Source: a bacterium (GTDB taxonomy: Bacteria; Armatimonadota; Zipacnadia; Zipacnadales; Zipacnadaceae). Taken from it: DNA of 36,880 bases. The stretch lies in contig JAUVXR010000026.1 in assembly GCA_030603495.1 (NCBI GenBank), positions 1 to 36,880 of the forward strand. The letters run 5' to 3'. This document shows, one piece after another, positions 31,244-36,831 of the stretch. The notes beneath the pieces are model-generated. The model was not told the origin of the DNA. It was given only the letters and a program-made list of their open reading frames with translations, and searched no databases. A program made the translations under genes and the position numbers. Position 1 is the first letter of the stretch. Every line of letters starts with the position of its first letter.

Positions 31244-32959
31244 TCAGGCCTCTTCAGCCAGTTCTTGCAGTGTGGCGACAGCCCCCGCGATGGGCACTAC
31301 CTCTTCAGCGCTGTCCTGCCGTCGCCTCACTTCTACTTCGCCACTTTCCGCCGTTTTCCTGCCAACGACGACGATCAGCGGGTAGCCGATCAACTCGGCA
31401 TCCTTGAACTTGACACCCGGGCGTTCGTCGCGGTCATCGAGCATGACCTCATAGCCCGCGGCCTCAAGCTGAGTGAGTAGGTCTTCGGCAACTGCGGCCA
31501 GCTTCGCGTTCTCCGGGTCGAGCAGCAGGATGACCACGCCGAAGGGCGCTACCTCCAGCGGCCAGATGATGCCGGCATCGTCGTGGTGCTCCTCGACGAT
31601 CGCCGCCAGCGCCCGGCTCACGCCGATCCCATAGCAGCCCATCACCATCGGCCGCTGCTCGCCGTCCTCGCTGGTGTAGAGCGCGCCGAGGTCCTCGGAG
31701 TACTTGGTGTCCAGCTTGAAGATGTGGCCCATCTCGATGGCGCGCCGCGTCGCCAACCTGCCGGTCTCGCACTGCGGGCAGGGATCACCGGCGGCCGCCT
31801 GGCGCAGGTCAGCGTAGCGGCTCACCGCAAAGTCGCGGCTGACATTCACACCAACCAGGTGTGCATCGGCTTCGTTCGCGCCGACTACGGCATTACCCAG
31901 GAATTCGATTTCGCGGTCGGCGATTATCTCGACTTCGTCGGGCAGCCCCACCGGGCCGCTGAAGCCAACCGGCGCACCGGTAAGCGCGAGTATCTCCTCG
32001 GCAGTGGCCATCCGCAACTCATCCGCGCCGGTCGCGCGCTGGAGCTTGATCTCATTCAGCTCCCGATCCCCGCGCACCAGCGCCGCCACAAAGCGCTCAT
32101 CCGCCCGGTACAGCAGCGTCTTGAGCAGCTTGGTCGGCGGCGTGCCCAGCATCTCGGAAATTGCCTGGATCGTCGTAGCTCCCGGTGTGTCAACTCGCTG
32201 GTAGTCATCTGCTGGCTCTGTCTCGGAGTCAGCTTCCGGCAGCCGGCTGGTGGCGCACTCGGCGTTGGCGGCGTAGTCGCACTTATCGCACACAAAGACG
32301 GTATCCTCGCCGCTGTCGCTCAGCACCATAAACTCGCGCGTATCGCTGCCACCCATCGAGCCGGCCTCCGCCTGCACCACCAGCGTCGCCAATCCCAGGC
32401 GCGCGAAGATGCGCACGTACGCCTCGTACATCGCCTGGTAGGAGCGCGCCAGCCCGGCCTCGTCAATGTCGAAGCTGTAGGCGTCTTTCATGGTGAACTC
32501 TTTGACCCGTATCAGGCCGCCGCGCGGGCGGATCTCGTCGCGGAACTTCGTCTGAATCTGGTAGAGGGTCAGGGGCAGTTGCTTGTAGGAGCTGACGTCG
32601 CGGGCGACGAGGTCGGTGATGACCTCCTCGTGGGTCGGCCCCAGGCAGAACCAGCGGCCGGTGCGGTCCTCGGTGCGCAGCGGCTGGGGCTGGAAGCTGT
32701 CCCAGCGGCCGGTGCGCTCCCACAGCTCTTTAGGCTCGAGCACCGCCATAAAGACCTCCAGGGCTCCGGCGCGGTTCATCTCCTCACGGACGACCTGCTC
32801 GACCCGGCGCAGCACGCGCAGGCCCAGCGGCAGGTAGGTAAAGACGCCGGAGGTCAGCGGGCGGATGAACCCGCCGCGCACCAGCAGCTTATGACTGGGA
32901 ATTTCGGCTTCGGCCGGCGCCTGTCTCAGCGTCGGCGCATAATACTGTGTCGCTCGCAA
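31244..32959 (-). CDS. proS: Proline--tRNA ligase (bacterial type)
   Basis: Class II aminoacyl-tRNA synthetase that charges tRNA-Pro. N-terminal catalytic motifs include LVRGGFIRPLTSGVFTYLPLG, LGPTHEEVITDL and RDEIRPRGGLIRVKEFTMKDAYSF (motif 2); motif 3 is CYGIGVSRALAAIVEEHHDD. Between motifs 2 and 3 is a YbaK-type insertion (about 220-400) that edits mischarged alanine. The C-terminal anticodon-binding domain follows. The 571-residue length is standard. The start is TTG 32959, with AGGAGG seven bases upstream and no closer in-frame ATG. Core gene, single-copy in most genomes. Confidence 0.97.
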   Translation of the reverse strand: MRATQYYAPTLRQAPAEAEIPSHKLLVRGGFIRPLTSGVFTYLPLGLRVLRRVEQVVREEMNRAGALEVFMAVLEPKELWERTGRWDSFQPQPLRTEDRTGRWFCLGPTHEEVITDLVARDVSSYKQLPLTLYQIQTKFRDEIRPRGGLIRVKEFTMKDAYSFDIDEAGLARSYQAMYEAYVRIFARLGLATLVVQAEAGSMGGSDTREFMVLSDSGEDTVFVCDKCDYAANAECATSRLPEADSETEPADDYQRVDTPGATTIQAISEMLGTPPTKLLKTLLYRADERFVAALVRGDRELNEIKLQRATGADELRMATAEEILALTGAPVGFSGPVGLPDEVEIIADREIEFLGNAVVGANEADAHLVGVNVSRDFAVSRYADLRQAAAGDPCPQCETGRLATRRAIEMGHIFKLDTKYSEDLGALYTSEDGEQRPMVMGCYGIGVSRALAAIVEEHHDDAGIIWPLEVAPFGVVILLLDPENAKLAAVAEDLLTQLEAAGYEVMLDDRDERPGVKFKDAELIGYPLIVVVGRKTAESGEVEVRRRQDSAEEVVPIAGAVATLQELAEEA

Positions 32960-32986
32960 GTTGATGCCTCCTGAATCTTATTCGTC

Positions 32987-33014
32987 TTGACCCCCGCTCC
33001 GGCAGTGATATAAT
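32987..33014 (+). promoter_or_regulatory. Sigma70-type promoter for the OLD-family gene
   Basis: TTGACC (32987-32992), 16-base spacer, perfect TATAAT (33009-33014), 55 bases before ATG 33069, which itself has a GGAGGGG ribosome site. Confidence 0.65.
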
Positions 33015-33041
33015 GATACTCGGCTTGGCGGAAATGAACAA
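33013..33041 (-). promoter_or_regulatory. Candidate promoter for proS
   Basis: Minus strand: TTGTTC (33041-33036), 17-base spacer, TATCAT (33018-33013), 54 bases before the TTG start. It overlaps the -10 box of the divergent promoter at 32987-33014. Confidence 0.5.
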
Positions 33042-33068
33042 GTATTCTCAGTTCGGAGGGGATACACC

Positions 33069-34922
33069 ATGAAGCTAAAGGCTGTTGTGCTCAAGAATTT
33101 CCGTTGCTATCACGCAGAGACCCGTATCAAGATAGAGGCTCTCTCCGCCTTTGTCGGCAAGAATGACGTAGGCAAGTCCAGTATCCTAGAAGCCTTGGAC
33201 ATTTTCTTCAATAGCGACGCGATAAAGATGGAGCCATTGGATGCTTGTGTCCACGGCGACCCTGCAGACGTGCGGATTGGTTGCGTATTCACGGACCTCC
33301 CGGATGAGCTGGTGCTGGACGCTACATCAACAACCAATCTGCGGGACGAGTATCTCCTGAACGCGGAAGGCGACCTAGAAATCCACAAAGTATGGAACTG
33401 CAACCCGAAGAAACCGAAGGAATCGGTCTACGCAGTCTGCTCTCATCCGACGGCTGAGCAGGCGGATGACCTGCTTCAGCTTAAGAGGGGCGAGCTCCAG
33501 CAACGGTTGACAGACCGGAGGATCGCCACAGAGGGCGTCAGCCAAAGCGCCAACCCTCCGATGAGGAAGGCTATCTGGCAGGACTTTGATGACCTCCAGT
33601 TGGACACACTCCAGCTGCCATTGGACAAGGAAGACGCGAAGAAGGTCTGGGATAAACTCCAACAGTCGCTTCCGACTTATGCGCTGTTCCGAGCTGACAG
33701 ACCCAGCCGGGATGAAGATGACGAAGTACAGGACCCGATGAAAGCCGCTGTAAAAGAAGCACTTAGGGAAGTGGAAGGGGAGCTTGAGGATATAAAGAGG
33801 GCAGTTCAGGAGCGAGCGAAAGACGTCGCCACGGCAACTCTGGACAAGCTCCGCGAAATGGACCAAAATCTCGCAAGTGAACTCTGGCCAGAGTTCAAAG
33901 AGGAGCCAAAGTGGGCGAACCTGTTCAAGCTCACCCTCACAGCGGACGATCAGATTCCCATAAATAAGCGAGGAAGCGGCGTTCGCAGACTGATCCTGCT
34001 TAGCTTCTTCAGGGCCACAGCAGAGCGAAAGCGCGACGAGGACGAGTCCGCCGGGATTATCTATGCTATCGAGGAACCCGAGACGTCGCAACATCCTCAT
34101 AACCAACGAATGCTCGTGGAGGCCTTAGCTGAGTTGTCCCAACACGAGGCTTGCCAAGTCATTCTGACAACCCACGTGCCAGGTCTTGCCGGGTTACTGC
34201 CAGTGGCATCACTGGGGCACGTCACCATAGATAGTGAAGGGATCGTGGAGGTGCATACGGGCGAGGATGACATTTATGAAGTCATAGCAGAAGAACTCGG
34301 CGTCATCCCTGACAACCGAGTCAGAGTGTTCCTCTGCCTTGAAGGTCCGAACGACATAAGCTTTCTGGAGCACGTCAGCAAGATGCTCCACAATCACGAT
34401 CCCACCTTGCCGGATATCCGAAGCGATCCGAGGGTTGCGTACATTCCACTCGGCGGTCAGAACCTAGTCCAGTGGGTACATCGTCACTATCTAAAGGATT
34501 TCGGACGTCCAGAAGTACATATCTACGATCGGGATGACGACGACCCGCCGCAGTACCAGAATGCTGTCGAGGAAATAAACGCGCGGGATGATGGCTCCTG
34601 GGCTCTTCTGACCCAAAAGCGGGAGATGGAGAACTACCTACACCCTGACGCTATCCGGGAGGTCCTCGACGTTGCTGTCGAGATCTCAGACGACACAGAC
34701 GTTCCGCTGGAGGTCGCGCGTGCCATCCACGAAGCTGAGCCTGACACCAAGCCGTGGGCGGAAGTCGACGACGACAAACGCGGCAAGAAGAAGAGCAAGG
34801 CGAAGCACCACCTGAACACCCAGGCTGCAGAAGCGATGACGTCTGAGCGTCTATGCGAAAGCGATCCAGATGGGGACATCGAAGGTTGGCTACGGCAAAT
34901 CGGAGAGATGATAGAGGAGTGA
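33069..34922 (+). CDS. OLD-family ATP-dependent nuclease (AAA ATPase plus TOPRIM), candidate anti-phage protein
   Basis: A 617-residue protein with an ABC-type ATPase split over the N-terminal 380 residues and a TOPRIM domain behind it. Walker A is GKNDVGKSS (30-38), the signature is NKRGSGVRR (299-307), Walker B is IIYAIEEPE (330-338) and the H-loop ILTTHVPG (365-372). The long insert 220-275 is charged and helical. TOPRIM residues are E425 (CLEGPNDISFL) and D487/D489 (YDRDD), followed by KREMENYL (517-524), a motif of the OLD/DUF4435 type nucleases. Related proteins (GajA of Gabija, AriA/AriB of PARIS, P2 Old) act against phage. No helicase or other partner is beside it. By eye its codons are more A-rich than its neighbours', suggesting transfer. 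Confidence 0.87.
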   Translation: MKLKAVVLKNFRCYHAETRIKIEALSAFVGKNDVGKSSILEALDIFFNSDAIKMEPLDACVHGDPADVRIGCVFTDLPDELVLDATSTTNLRDEYLLNAEGDLEIHKVWNCNPKKPKESVYAVCSHPTAEQADDLLQLKRGELQQRLTDRRIATEGVSQSANPPMRKAIWQDFDDLQLDTLQLPLDKEDAKKVWDKLQQSLPTYALFRADRPSRDEDDEVQDPMKAAVKEALREVEGELEDIKRAVQERAKDVATATLDKLREMDQNLASELWPEFKEEPKWANLFKLTLTADDQIPINKRGSGVRRLILLSFFRATAERKRDEDESAGIIYAIEEPETSQHPHNQRMLVEALAELSQHEACQVILTTHVPGLAGLLPVASLGHVTIDSEGIVEVHTGEDDIYEVIAEELGVIPDNRVRVFLCLEGPNDISFLEHVSKMLHNHDPTLPDIRSDPRVAYIPLGGQNLVQWVHRHYLKDFGRPEVHIYDRDDDDPPQYQNAVEEINARDDGSWALLTQKREMENYLHPDAIREVLDVAVEISDDTDVPLEVARAIHEAEPDTKPWAEVDDDKRGKKKSKAKHHLNTQAAEAMTSERLCESDPDGDIEGWLRQIGEMIEE

Positions 34923-34984: not shown

Positions 34985-35365
34985 ATGCGGATTCTGCTGC
35001 GAATAGCCAAGGTACTTCTGGTTCTGGTCGGGCTAATAGCAGTCCTGCACTTGACCTGTATACTGTGCAAGCGCCCGCTGGTTCGGCTGATTCAGGTGGA
35101 CGGTATCTCTATGCAGCCCACCTTTGATCCCGGCGAGCGGCTGCTGTTTATCAGACGCCACTTTGAACCAGACAGTATTGTCCTGGCTGACGCGGGCGCC
35201 GATGGCTTAGTCGTCAAGAGAGTCCTCGACTTGACGGATGGCGAGGTCCGTTTGGTCGGAGACAATAGCGAGCACTCTGCCGTGTACGACCTCCCCCGCA
35301 GCGCGGTTCTGGGCGTGTACGTGGGCAAGGTTCCGCTGAAGCTGCCCTGCTGCCAGGCGAGGTAG
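34985..35365 (+). CDS. Short S26-family signal peptidase-like protein
   Basis: A 126-residue membrane protein with one N-terminal hydrophobic segment (about 3-27) and a compact S26/S24 protease domain. S42 in VDGISMQPT and K78 in VVKRVL fit the serine-lysine dyad of type I signal peptidases; VGDNSEHSAVYDLP corresponds to the GDN box. It lacks the large insertion domains of LepB, like the smaller S26 members. It could remove signal peptides or process a particular substrate. GGGAG precedes the ATG. It lies 62 bases after the OLD gene on the same strand and may share its transcript. Confidence 0.8.
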   Translation: MRILLRIAKVLLVLVGLIAVLHLTCILCKRPLVRLIQVDGISMQPTFDPGERLLFIRRHFEPDSIVLADAGADGLVVKRVLDLTDGEVRLVGDNSEHSAVYDLPRSAVLGVYVGKVPLKLPCCQAR

Positions 35366-35399: not shown

Positions 35400-35555
35400 T
35401 TAGGTTGCGGCCTCGAGTGCGTGGATTTCAGCAACCAGTTGCTCGGCAGCCTCCGTCATTTTGCTGCGTCGTAGAGGCTCCCCGCAGCGGAAGATGACGG
35501 CGTAGTCGCCGCCACAGGCCAGGCCGATGTCTATCTTCTTTGCCTCTATCCTCCT
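35400..35555 (-). CDS. Small conserved module, copy 1 (no standard start codon)
   Basis: A 51-codon open frame ending in TAA at 35402-35400. Its conserved part reads GLACGGDYAVIFR, followed by an MTEAAEQLVAEIHALE tail. It overlaps the end of the URO-D gene by ten bases. No ATG, GTG or TTG stands in frame near the front; ATA codons at 35549 and 35534 are the nearest possibilities. A closely related copy lies at 36616-36732, with 37 of 39 bases equal over the conserved part. I do not recognise the family. It may be a real small protein with an unusual start, or a remnant. Confidence 0.4.
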   Translation of the reverse strand, partial: RRIEAKKIDIGLACGGDYAVIFRCGEPLRRSKMTEAAEQLVAEIHALEAAT

Positions 35556-36610
35556 CTACCGTCCCACCAATAGGCACGAAACTCTTCCATGGCCCAGGCG
35601 ATGGCCTCAATATTCTCTAAGGGGACATCGGCTTCCAACATCGCCCAGATGCCCAAGCCCCCTTGGGGCAAGCCCAGACTCTTCACCACTTCCTCTATGT
35701 GGCTGCGGATCTGCGTGGGTGACCAGAAGGGGAGTTTCTGCCGGTCCAGGTCGAGCTTGACCGCCATTTTTCCCTTGTAGGCTCGAGCAATGCCTGCGAG
35801 GGTGTTCGCACCGATCTGCGGGTCATGCATCGAGACGCCACACTCGATCAGATCATTCACAATCTCCAACAGGTGACCGTCTGAGGACAGATAGACGTGC
35901 GTGCCGGCCTGGCGACAGGTGTGGAATATCTGCTTGAACATCGGCTTGATATACTGGCGGAACTTGGCCGGACTGATCATCAGCGCCTGTTGGGTGCCGA
36001 TGTCGGTGTGGAAGTGCATGAGGTCTACGCCGATCTCCAGCCACCGGTTGACCAGCTTCATTTCGTAGTCGGTGAGCATCTCAATCAATGCGGGCAACTG
36101 AGGGGCGTCAGTGCCGAAATCAATCATTAAGTTCTCAAAACCCCTCAGGTAATAGAGGCGGTCGAAGAGGCACTCGCCTCTGCCTATGGTAAGCTCGCCC
36201 CGCTCCTTCTGGGCAGCGATCTGTTTGGGGATTTTGTCCCAGTCGCGCTCGCCGAATACCGGCGTCGTGGCATTAACCAGGGGGTCGGGCGCCTCATAGG
36301 TGGCCAGCGCGTCCCAATCAGCTATCGGAGGGTCTACGACCTGGCCCAATATGCCTCCCTGCACGTTCCGCCAGACGCAGCCCCAGTTGTCCGTGGTGTA
36401 TCCTTCCTGGTCCTGCCCGGTGTATTCGTGGCAGTCAATAGTCGCTTTTGCCACATCGCCAAAAACCGTCGGATGACGCAGCAGTATCTCTTTCAATGCC
36501 TCCTTGTACTTATTGCGAGCCGCTGCCGTGAAGTTAATCCAGGTGGGGATCCATTCGGGGTCGCGAAACTCCAGCGTCCTGAGGAAGTTCTCCCGGTCAG
36601 ATATGGGCAT
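35546..36610 (-). CDS. Uroporphyrinogen decarboxylase (URO-D) family protein
   Basis: A 354-residue TIM-barrel protein of the URO-D superfamily, which includes HemE and corrinoid-dependent methyltransferases such as MtaA and CmuA. Typical elements are the N-terminal SDRENFLRTLEFRDPEWIPTWI, GVDLMHFHTDIGTQQALMISPAKFRQYIKPMFKQI and the later HVYLSSDGHLLEIVNDLIECGV. HemE's N-terminal arginine motif is not evident, so a methyltransferase-like role or an unknown one is more likely than haem synthesis. AGAGGT lies just before the ATG, five bases after the stop of module copy 2, so translation is probably coupled. No corrinoid protein is in the window. Confidence 0.85.
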   Translation of the reverse strand: MPISDRENFLRTLEFRDPEWIPTWINFTAAARNKYKEALKEILLRHPTVFGDVAKATIDCHEYTGQDQEGYTTDNWGCVWRNVQGGILGQVVDPPIADWDALATYEAPDPLVNATTPVFGERDWDKIPKQIAAQKERGELTIGRGECLFDRLYYLRGFENLMIDFGTDAPQLPALIEMLTDYEMKLVNRWLEIGVDLMHFHTDIGTQQALMISPAKFRQYIKPMFKQIFHTCRQAGTHVYLSSDGHLLEIVNDLIECGVSMHDPQIGANTLAGIARAYKGKMAVKLDLDRQKLPFWSPTQIRSHIEEVVKSLGLPQGGLGIWAMLEADVPLENIEAIAWAMEEFRAYWWDGRGG

Positions 36611-36615
36611 ACCTC

Positions 36616-36831
36616 TTACTCCAGTGAGTGGATTTCATCCAGGAGAGCTTCGGGGGCTTCGGCCATCTTCACGTACTTGAGCAGCGCCCCGTGGCGGAAG
36701 ATGACGGCGTAGTCACCGCCGCAGGCCAGGCCTGTCCACCGCCGCTGCCTCAATGCCGCGAAGGTGGATACTCGGTGCACAACAGATGCAGGGGTGGGTC
36801 GTCTTCCTCTATCTCTGGGAAACGGCCAACC
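36616..36831 (-). CDS. Small conserved module, copy 2
   Basis: Open frame ending in TAA at 36618-36616, just five bases before the URO-D start. The conserved part (36732 down) reads GLACGGDYAVIFRHGALLKY, then VKMAEAPEALLDEIHSLE, close to copy 1. Codons upstream of it (GRRPTPASVVHRVS...) look unlike a protein and may be out of frame, so the real start could be GTG 36780 or be missing. A frameshift relative to the small frame at 36750-36872 is possible. Function unknown. Confidence 0.4.
   Translation of the reverse strand, partial: GWPFPRDRGRRPTPASVVHRVSTFAALRQRRWTGLACGGDYAVIFRHGALLKYVKMAEAPEALLDEIHSLE

Follow-up and report, generated by a model that had tools for sequence, protein, structure and literature searches.

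Whether a single gene can carry both sensor and effector of an anti-phage defence, and to which of the known ATPase-TOPRIM systems such a gene would belong, is the question raised by an open reading frame that lies between housekeeping genes in an Armatimonadota bacterium (contig JAUVXR010000026.1; the whole stretch of 36,880 nucleotides analysed is called the window). The ORF at 33069-34922 is intact on the forward strand, with an ATG at 33069 and a stop codon at 34920-34922, it encodes 617 amino acids, and its ribosome-binding sequence, GGAGGGG, was rated good. Residues 1-373 of the protein matched Pfam AAA_15 with an E value of 2e-83 (score 281 bits, cut-off 32.1); an earlier note on this DNA had spoken of an "AAA" ATPase, which we correct to an OLD-type ABC ATPase, not AAA+. 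The same note had described the ATPase motifs and the TOPRIM acidic residues as intact, and this is upheld by conservation among 15 full-length family sequences, the others of which are 38-54% identical to the window protein. Unchanged in all 15 are G30, N32, G35 and K36, the run from N299 to G304, E335 to T339 with H342 and P343 (Walker B/D-loop) and H369 (H-loop) of the ATPase, as well as E425, G426, D429, G462, G463, D487, T515, E521 and Y523 of the TOPRIM domain, where D489 is conserved in at least 90%. The features of the locus are collected in Table 1.

Table 1. Positions in the window of the insert, its gene with domains and motifs, and the flanking context
Feature	Position	Strand	Basis or remark
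proS, left flank, context	31244..32959	-	NCBIfam E 1.6e-229
Approximate insert	32976..34913	+	No congener homology; blastn against L051-L053 and junction sequences
Promoter-like TTGACC-16-TATAAT, TG preceding second hexamer	32987..33014	+	11/12 matches, within insert
Fused OLD-type ABC ATPase-TOPRIM gene, 617 aa	33069..34922	+	
ABC/OLD ATPase domain, residues 1-373	33069..34187	+	Pfam AAA_15; TsOLD 6p74 model match
Walker A GKNDVGKS, residues 30-37	33156..33179	+	G30, N32, G35, K36 invariant
ABC signature element NKRGSG, residues 299-304	33963..33980	+	Invariant, 15 homologues
Walker B IIYAIEEPE, residues 330-338	34056..34082	+	E335, E336, P337, E338 invariant
TOPRIM effector domain (putative effector), residues 400-617	34266..34919	+	Domain modelled alone, pLDDT 90.2; VIA matches
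TOPRIM motif EGPND (E425, D429)	34341..34355	+	E425, G426, D429 invariant
TOPRIM motif DRD (D487-D489)	34527..34535	+	D487 invariant, D489 at least 90%
ENYL element E521-L524, AriB/DUF4435-like third motif	34629..34640	+	
S24/S26 peptidase-like ORF, right flank, context	34985..35365	+	Weak Pfam/NCBIfam matches
URO-D-like ORF, neighbour	35546-36610	-	

The remark that the composition of the gene looks different from that of its neighbours was borne out by measurement, since its GC content is 54.9% compared with 61.1 +/- 2.1% in the 27 other window genes (z -3.0) and its GC3 is 63.9% compared with 73.0 +/- 2.9% (z -3.1), and its AT skew is likewise deviant. Its boundaries could be located because proS is 78-87% identical in three congeners, which made a comparison of the junction possible. 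Homology to the congeners ends at about 32975, close upstream of the ribosome-binding site of proS, and restarts at about 34915, where the gene reaches its 3' end, leaving an insert of about 1.94 kb that has ORF 33069-34922 as its sole gene; on the right, the S24/S26-like ORF is found in the same place, 77% identical, in G006. A search of six congeners, three of them with assemblies less than 85% complete, did not find the ORF, and in three congeners, G001, G004 and G006, the proS junction is occupied by different cargo. In G006 the same gap holds a D12 adenine methylase gene (E 3e-22) and, after it, a gene for a SacI-like endonuclease (18.4 bits, cut-off 19.3), judged by these matches a probable type II restriction-modification (RM) system, and in G001 and G004 it holds other ORFs, distinct from the window gene. 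None of the congener junctions compared is a plainly empty site, and we speak of an insertion because homology is lost sharply and the cargo at the same spot differs. The earlier claim of an insertion between housekeeping genes is thereby upheld, and conservation of the gene at the proS-S26 junction was not seen. The genes flanking it are proS and Memo-like, S24/S26-like and URO-D-like genes, and no partner gene (GajB helicase, AriB or reverse transcriptase) was seen beside it, in agreement with the earlier description of a single gene with no GajB, AriB or other partner adjoining. The proS gene of G004 (L053:1654-3357) is interrupted by a TAA in frame, which may be an error of the assembly.

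In outgroup genera the gene immediately upstream of proS is ispG. Within the genus, ispG 3' tails of about 50 codons are found at the proS junction (G001, G004, G006) and intact ispG elsewhere, and the host genome has an intact dxr-rseP-ispG at G000:C62, away from that junction; a break or an integration at the 3' end of ispG may have given rise to the insertion spot. A repeat of about 110 bp near the insertion was considered as a mobile-element end and ruled out, being the ispG 3' tail. On each side of the URO-D-like gene lies one such tail, 40-48 codons long and oriented alike (35403-35546 and 36616-36735, both on the reverse strand). The other full family member of the phylum (L122, G211:C29, 7267-10475) has an intact ispG (GcpE E 9e-121) about 60 bp upstream of it, the gene whose tail marks the insertion spot in the window.

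The full AlphaFold2 model of the window protein (pLDDT 81.7) had as its best Foldseek matches TsOLD (6p74, E 2e-16), GajA and the retron-Eco8 OLD, and VIA-align superposed it on TsOLD 6p74 over 413 residues (model 2-614) with Z 17.4 and an rmsd of 15.6, a large value which shows that the two domains of the model differ in relative position from those of TsOLD. AriA was absent from the 50 listed structural matches, which is uninformative, as the list is taken up by SMC/Rad50 heads. A maximum-likelihood tree was built from 41 ATPase domains, and several of its branches are long; in it the family forms one clade (support 100/99) and sits with OLD, apart from the ATPases paired with DUF4435 genes and from a DUF4435 fusion (99/94); that fusion, which comes from the same class (L031), falls on the AriA side. 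Grouping the family with AriA was not rejected by the AU test (p 0.196), and the tree favours placement with OLD over AriA. Grouping with non-defence OLD proteins, which the earlier note had named as a refuting outcome, was not seen, the family being a clade of its own, mobile and often RM-associated. In a PADLOC search the AriA models matched the window protein, as did many GajA/Old models. We dropped the AriA match as proof of PARIS since these models look general: judged by their profile lengths of 373 and 304, the two are apparently Pfam AAA_15 and AAA_21.

Residues 375-617 alone matched no Pfam or PADLOC model, and a C-terminal profile run against PDB sequences returned chance matches only. 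The homology of this part had to be established by profile-profile and structure comparison. Modelled alone, it is a TOPRIM domain, whose best structural matches are the OLD TOPRIMs, then PARIS AriB and GajA: VIA gave Z 11.3 for the BpOLD TOPRIM (rmsd 2.9), 8.8 for AriB, 8.6 for GajA and 7.0 for retron Eco2, with unrelated folds at Z 5.4 or less. By hhalign, the TOPRIM profile of the family scored about equally with DUF4435 (69) and OLD (64), unrelated methylase and helicase profiles scoring 15-18. It is the third acidic element that separates AriB-type from OLD TOPRIMs in the aligned sequences. Of the 15 family members 14 have ENY(L/I) and the remaining one ESY; the element also occurs in five of eight DUF4435 proteins, a sixth having ENH, and in none of the 15 OLD TOPRIMs of the comparison set. 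In the alignment the ENYL of the window protein (521-524) falls on the ENY found in DUF4435 proteins and in E. coli AriB (PDB 8ux9_A, SLENYF); moreover, most AriB-type proteins have DRD, like the window protein, which shows the complete AriB-type active-site pattern EGxxD, DxD/E, ENY. Since ENY(L/I) tells AriB-type from OLD TOPRIMs, the earlier likening of ENYL to the DUF4435 nucleases of PARIS AriB is sound, being supported by both the alignment and the motif counts. As to domain models, DUF4435 (PF14491, threshold 27 bits) matched neither the window protein nor 14 relatives nor anything in the host genome, and OLD-like_TOPRIM (PF20469) matched 3/15 relatives and not the window protein. The host genome encodes a second OLD-type protein (G000:C22:8158-8757) with a clear OLD-like_TOPRIM domain (E 1e-19).

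Relatives were found in Omnitrophota, Cyanobacteria, Bacteroidota, Bacillota, Nitrospirota, Elusimicrobiota, Planctomycetota, Fusobacteriota and an archaeon, and on 372 plasmid records, most of the plasmid copies being on conjugative plasmids; in its own phylum the family occurs in 2/291 genomes. It is not phage-borne as far as seen: viral contigs gave no relative, and phage records gave one 63% partial match and two weak ones. A C-terminal remnant (L004, G041:C19:211968-212303), 57% identical over 112 residues and without the ATPase part, is what is left of a decayed gene in one genome from a different family of that class. A relative with 38-39% identity is carried by hundreds of enterobacterial plasmids (L023, L127 and many records). 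In L023 and L127 it lies beside silver-resistance genes, in one of them also adjoining Tn7-like transposition genes; many of the Enterobacter hormaechei plasmid copies are truncated genes, and on Erwinia, E. coli and Pediococcus plasmids (L125, L126, L128) a small recombinase gene is directly upstream. Hitch-hiking, or competition between plasmids, might also account for the hundreds of copies on plasmids.

Relatives also occupy RM operons. The family gene of Nitrospira moscoviensis stands between hsdS and hsdM, the ends of the genes overlapping. In Phycisphaerales and Elusimicrobia an operon that includes an SNF2 helicase gene has the family gene ahead of a Mod-type methylase gene, and other relatives adjoin BanI and a C5 methylase, MmeI, LlaMI, type I hsd, or N6/N4 or DUF1156-type methylases. 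A constant partner gene was sought across 18 compared loci and discarded as an idea, for they share none, only differing RM genes. An RM gene is present within 6 kb in 12/27 family loci versus 3/19 OLD control loci (one-sided Fisher p 0.04), and in 14/27 family loci when annotated cases are included (p 0.013), scored leave-one-out on a small sample from the matches listed, in which L010 and L015 are near-duplicates. The association with RM is thus suggestive and the enrichment modest. In the window there is no RM gene beside ORF 33069-34922; the host genome has N6 methylase genes on four contigs, none of them beside the ORF, and many plasmid relatives lie outside RM loci, with silver-resistance/Tn7-like or recombinase neighbours. 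On Gloeocapsa and Leptospira plasmids (L096, L097), PARIS-type pairs of AAA and DUF4435 genes adjoin a gene for a DUF1156 or site-specific DNA methyltransferase.

What we observe is a two-domain anatomy with conserved motifs, an exact insertion, no partner, a patchy spread across phyla and relatives in RM operons. From this context and these relatives we infer that the gene probably encodes a horizontally mobile single-gene anti-phage defence protein composed of an ATPase sensor and a TOPRIM effector. The N-terminal OLD-type ABC ATPase would act as sensor and lock, and the C-terminal TOPRIM, with its AriB-type ENYL third element, as effector nuclease. At rest, an oligomer of the ATPase would keep the TOPRIM inactive. 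The cue, most likely a phage protein or a state that signals blocked restriction, would alter the ATPase and release the metal-dependent nuclease, and the infected cell would be stopped. By analogy with systems described before, the protein probably serves as an abortive-infection backup to restriction. In PARIS, an anti-restriction protein is sensed by AriA, which then sets the tRNase AriB free (PMC9122126, PMC12409363), PrrC is an ATPase-RNase backup within a type I RM operon (PMC3710099), and OLD-TOPRIM modules have been proposed as backup effectors in BREX loci (PMC12839542). We would name an anti-restriction trigger only tentatively, and RNA, namely tRNA, rather than DNA as the target of the nuclease is a similarly tentative choice. 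That the whole family consists of single-gene 'restriction guards', in which an OLD-type ATPase watches RM and an AriB-like TOPRIM ribonuclease halts translation once restriction is blocked, is a more speculative and rather doubtful extension. Anti-phage phenotypes have been reported for the ATPase-TOPRIM proteins IbfA, HEC-04 and YbjD (PMC12111858, PMC13261556), and in YbjD the TOPRIM domain was dispensable, which calls for caution in crediting the nuclease with all the work.

The main rival to an RNA target is a DNA target, as with P2 Old, and in structure the TOPRIM domain comes closest to an OLD DNA nuclease rather than to AriB, which argues for it. The window protein might accordingly be an ordinary Class 1 OLD exo/endonuclease like P2 Old/TsOLD, with the likeness of ENYL to AriB a convergence among TOPRIM domains, a reading that we hold to be somewhat unlikely. 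It shares with Class 1 OLD proteins (P2 Old, Thermus scotoductus OLD 6p74, E. coli YbjD) the one-gene layout and order of ABC ATPase and TOPRIM, the fold, for which TsOLD and the BpOLD TOPRIM are the best matches, and the half of the ATPase tree, and the few relatives that match OLD-like_TOPRIM point the same way. However, the window protein itself lacks that match, the family is a separate clade with an ENY(L/I) element not seen in the OLD TOPRIMs compared, and it frequently occurs in RM loci, unlike Class 1 OLD genes, for which no proximity to further defence genes is described (PMC10568477). A true PARIS fusion, an AriAB in one chain that is triggered by anti-restriction proteins such as Ocr and cleaves host tRNA, is improbable. 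Single-gene ariAB fusions have been reported (PMC9122126), and the window protein has in common with PARIS an ATPase sensor and a TOPRIM, the strong AAA_15 match, the ENY and D-x-D motifs, a fold comparable to AriB and, in its family, a restriction-linked context; yet its AAA_15 match is far stronger than those of the AriA-type ATPases compared, DUF4435 is unmatched throughout the relatives searched, and its ATPase is placed with OLD rather than with DUF4435-paired ATPases (the AU test leaving the alternative standing), whereas a DUF4435 fusion from the same class does fall on the AriA side. The earlier suggestion of a fused, self-contained defence protein is thus supported as regards a single, inserted, OLD/PARIS-like gene with a probable defence role; by domain definition the protein is not a PARIS fusion.

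Least probable of all, in our judgement, is a role outside phage defence, in which plasmid or mobile-element maintenance or competition, or a DNA-repair or cell-cycle function of an OLD protein, would be carried about by mobile elements. Conjugative plasmids hold most plasmid copies, several have a small recombinase gene directly upstream, and one archaeal class of OLD proteins acts in the cell cycle (PMC12796447), but the distribution is patchy, from the congeners to the phylum, and family genes are embedded in RM operons in several phyla. With respect to other known systems, Gabija GajA is likewise an OLD ATPase-TOPRIM single chain of related fold, but no GajB helicase gene lies beside the window gene and its relatives have no recurrent helicase partner. 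The retron-Eco8 OLD effector, of Class 3 OLD, is also such a chain and among the top structural matches, but no reverse transcriptase gene was seen as a neighbour here. PrrC and RloC are ABC ATPase-nuclease fusions, PrrC being located within a type I RM operon, like the relative in Nitrospira, but their effector is the unrelated HEPN nuclease instead of TOPRIM. HEC-04 and IbfA, likened here by description, follow the same two-domain single-gene plan with reported phage protection (PMC12111858), though IbfA has 518 amino acids and is part of an operon, whereas the window protein has 617 and is encoded by a single gene.

If our mechanism held, restriction guards would be the TOPRIM counterpart of PrrC, with an ATPase lineage other than that of PARIS, and, should the RM link hold, another independent case of a nuclease as restriction backup beside PrrC and PARIS. 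The literature poses as unanswered whether isolated ATPase-TOPRIM genes defend alone and whether fused AriAB are distinct from Class 1 OLD (PMC10568477), questions for which the family offers a clean test case of one gene with no partner and a DxD and ENY active site; relatives in RM operons and on common enterobacterial plasmids could be assayed in laboratory E. coli. Finally, calling 'PARIS' on the ATPase profile alone, by PADLOC AriA models or by AAA_15 in fusion profiles, can mislabel such proteins.
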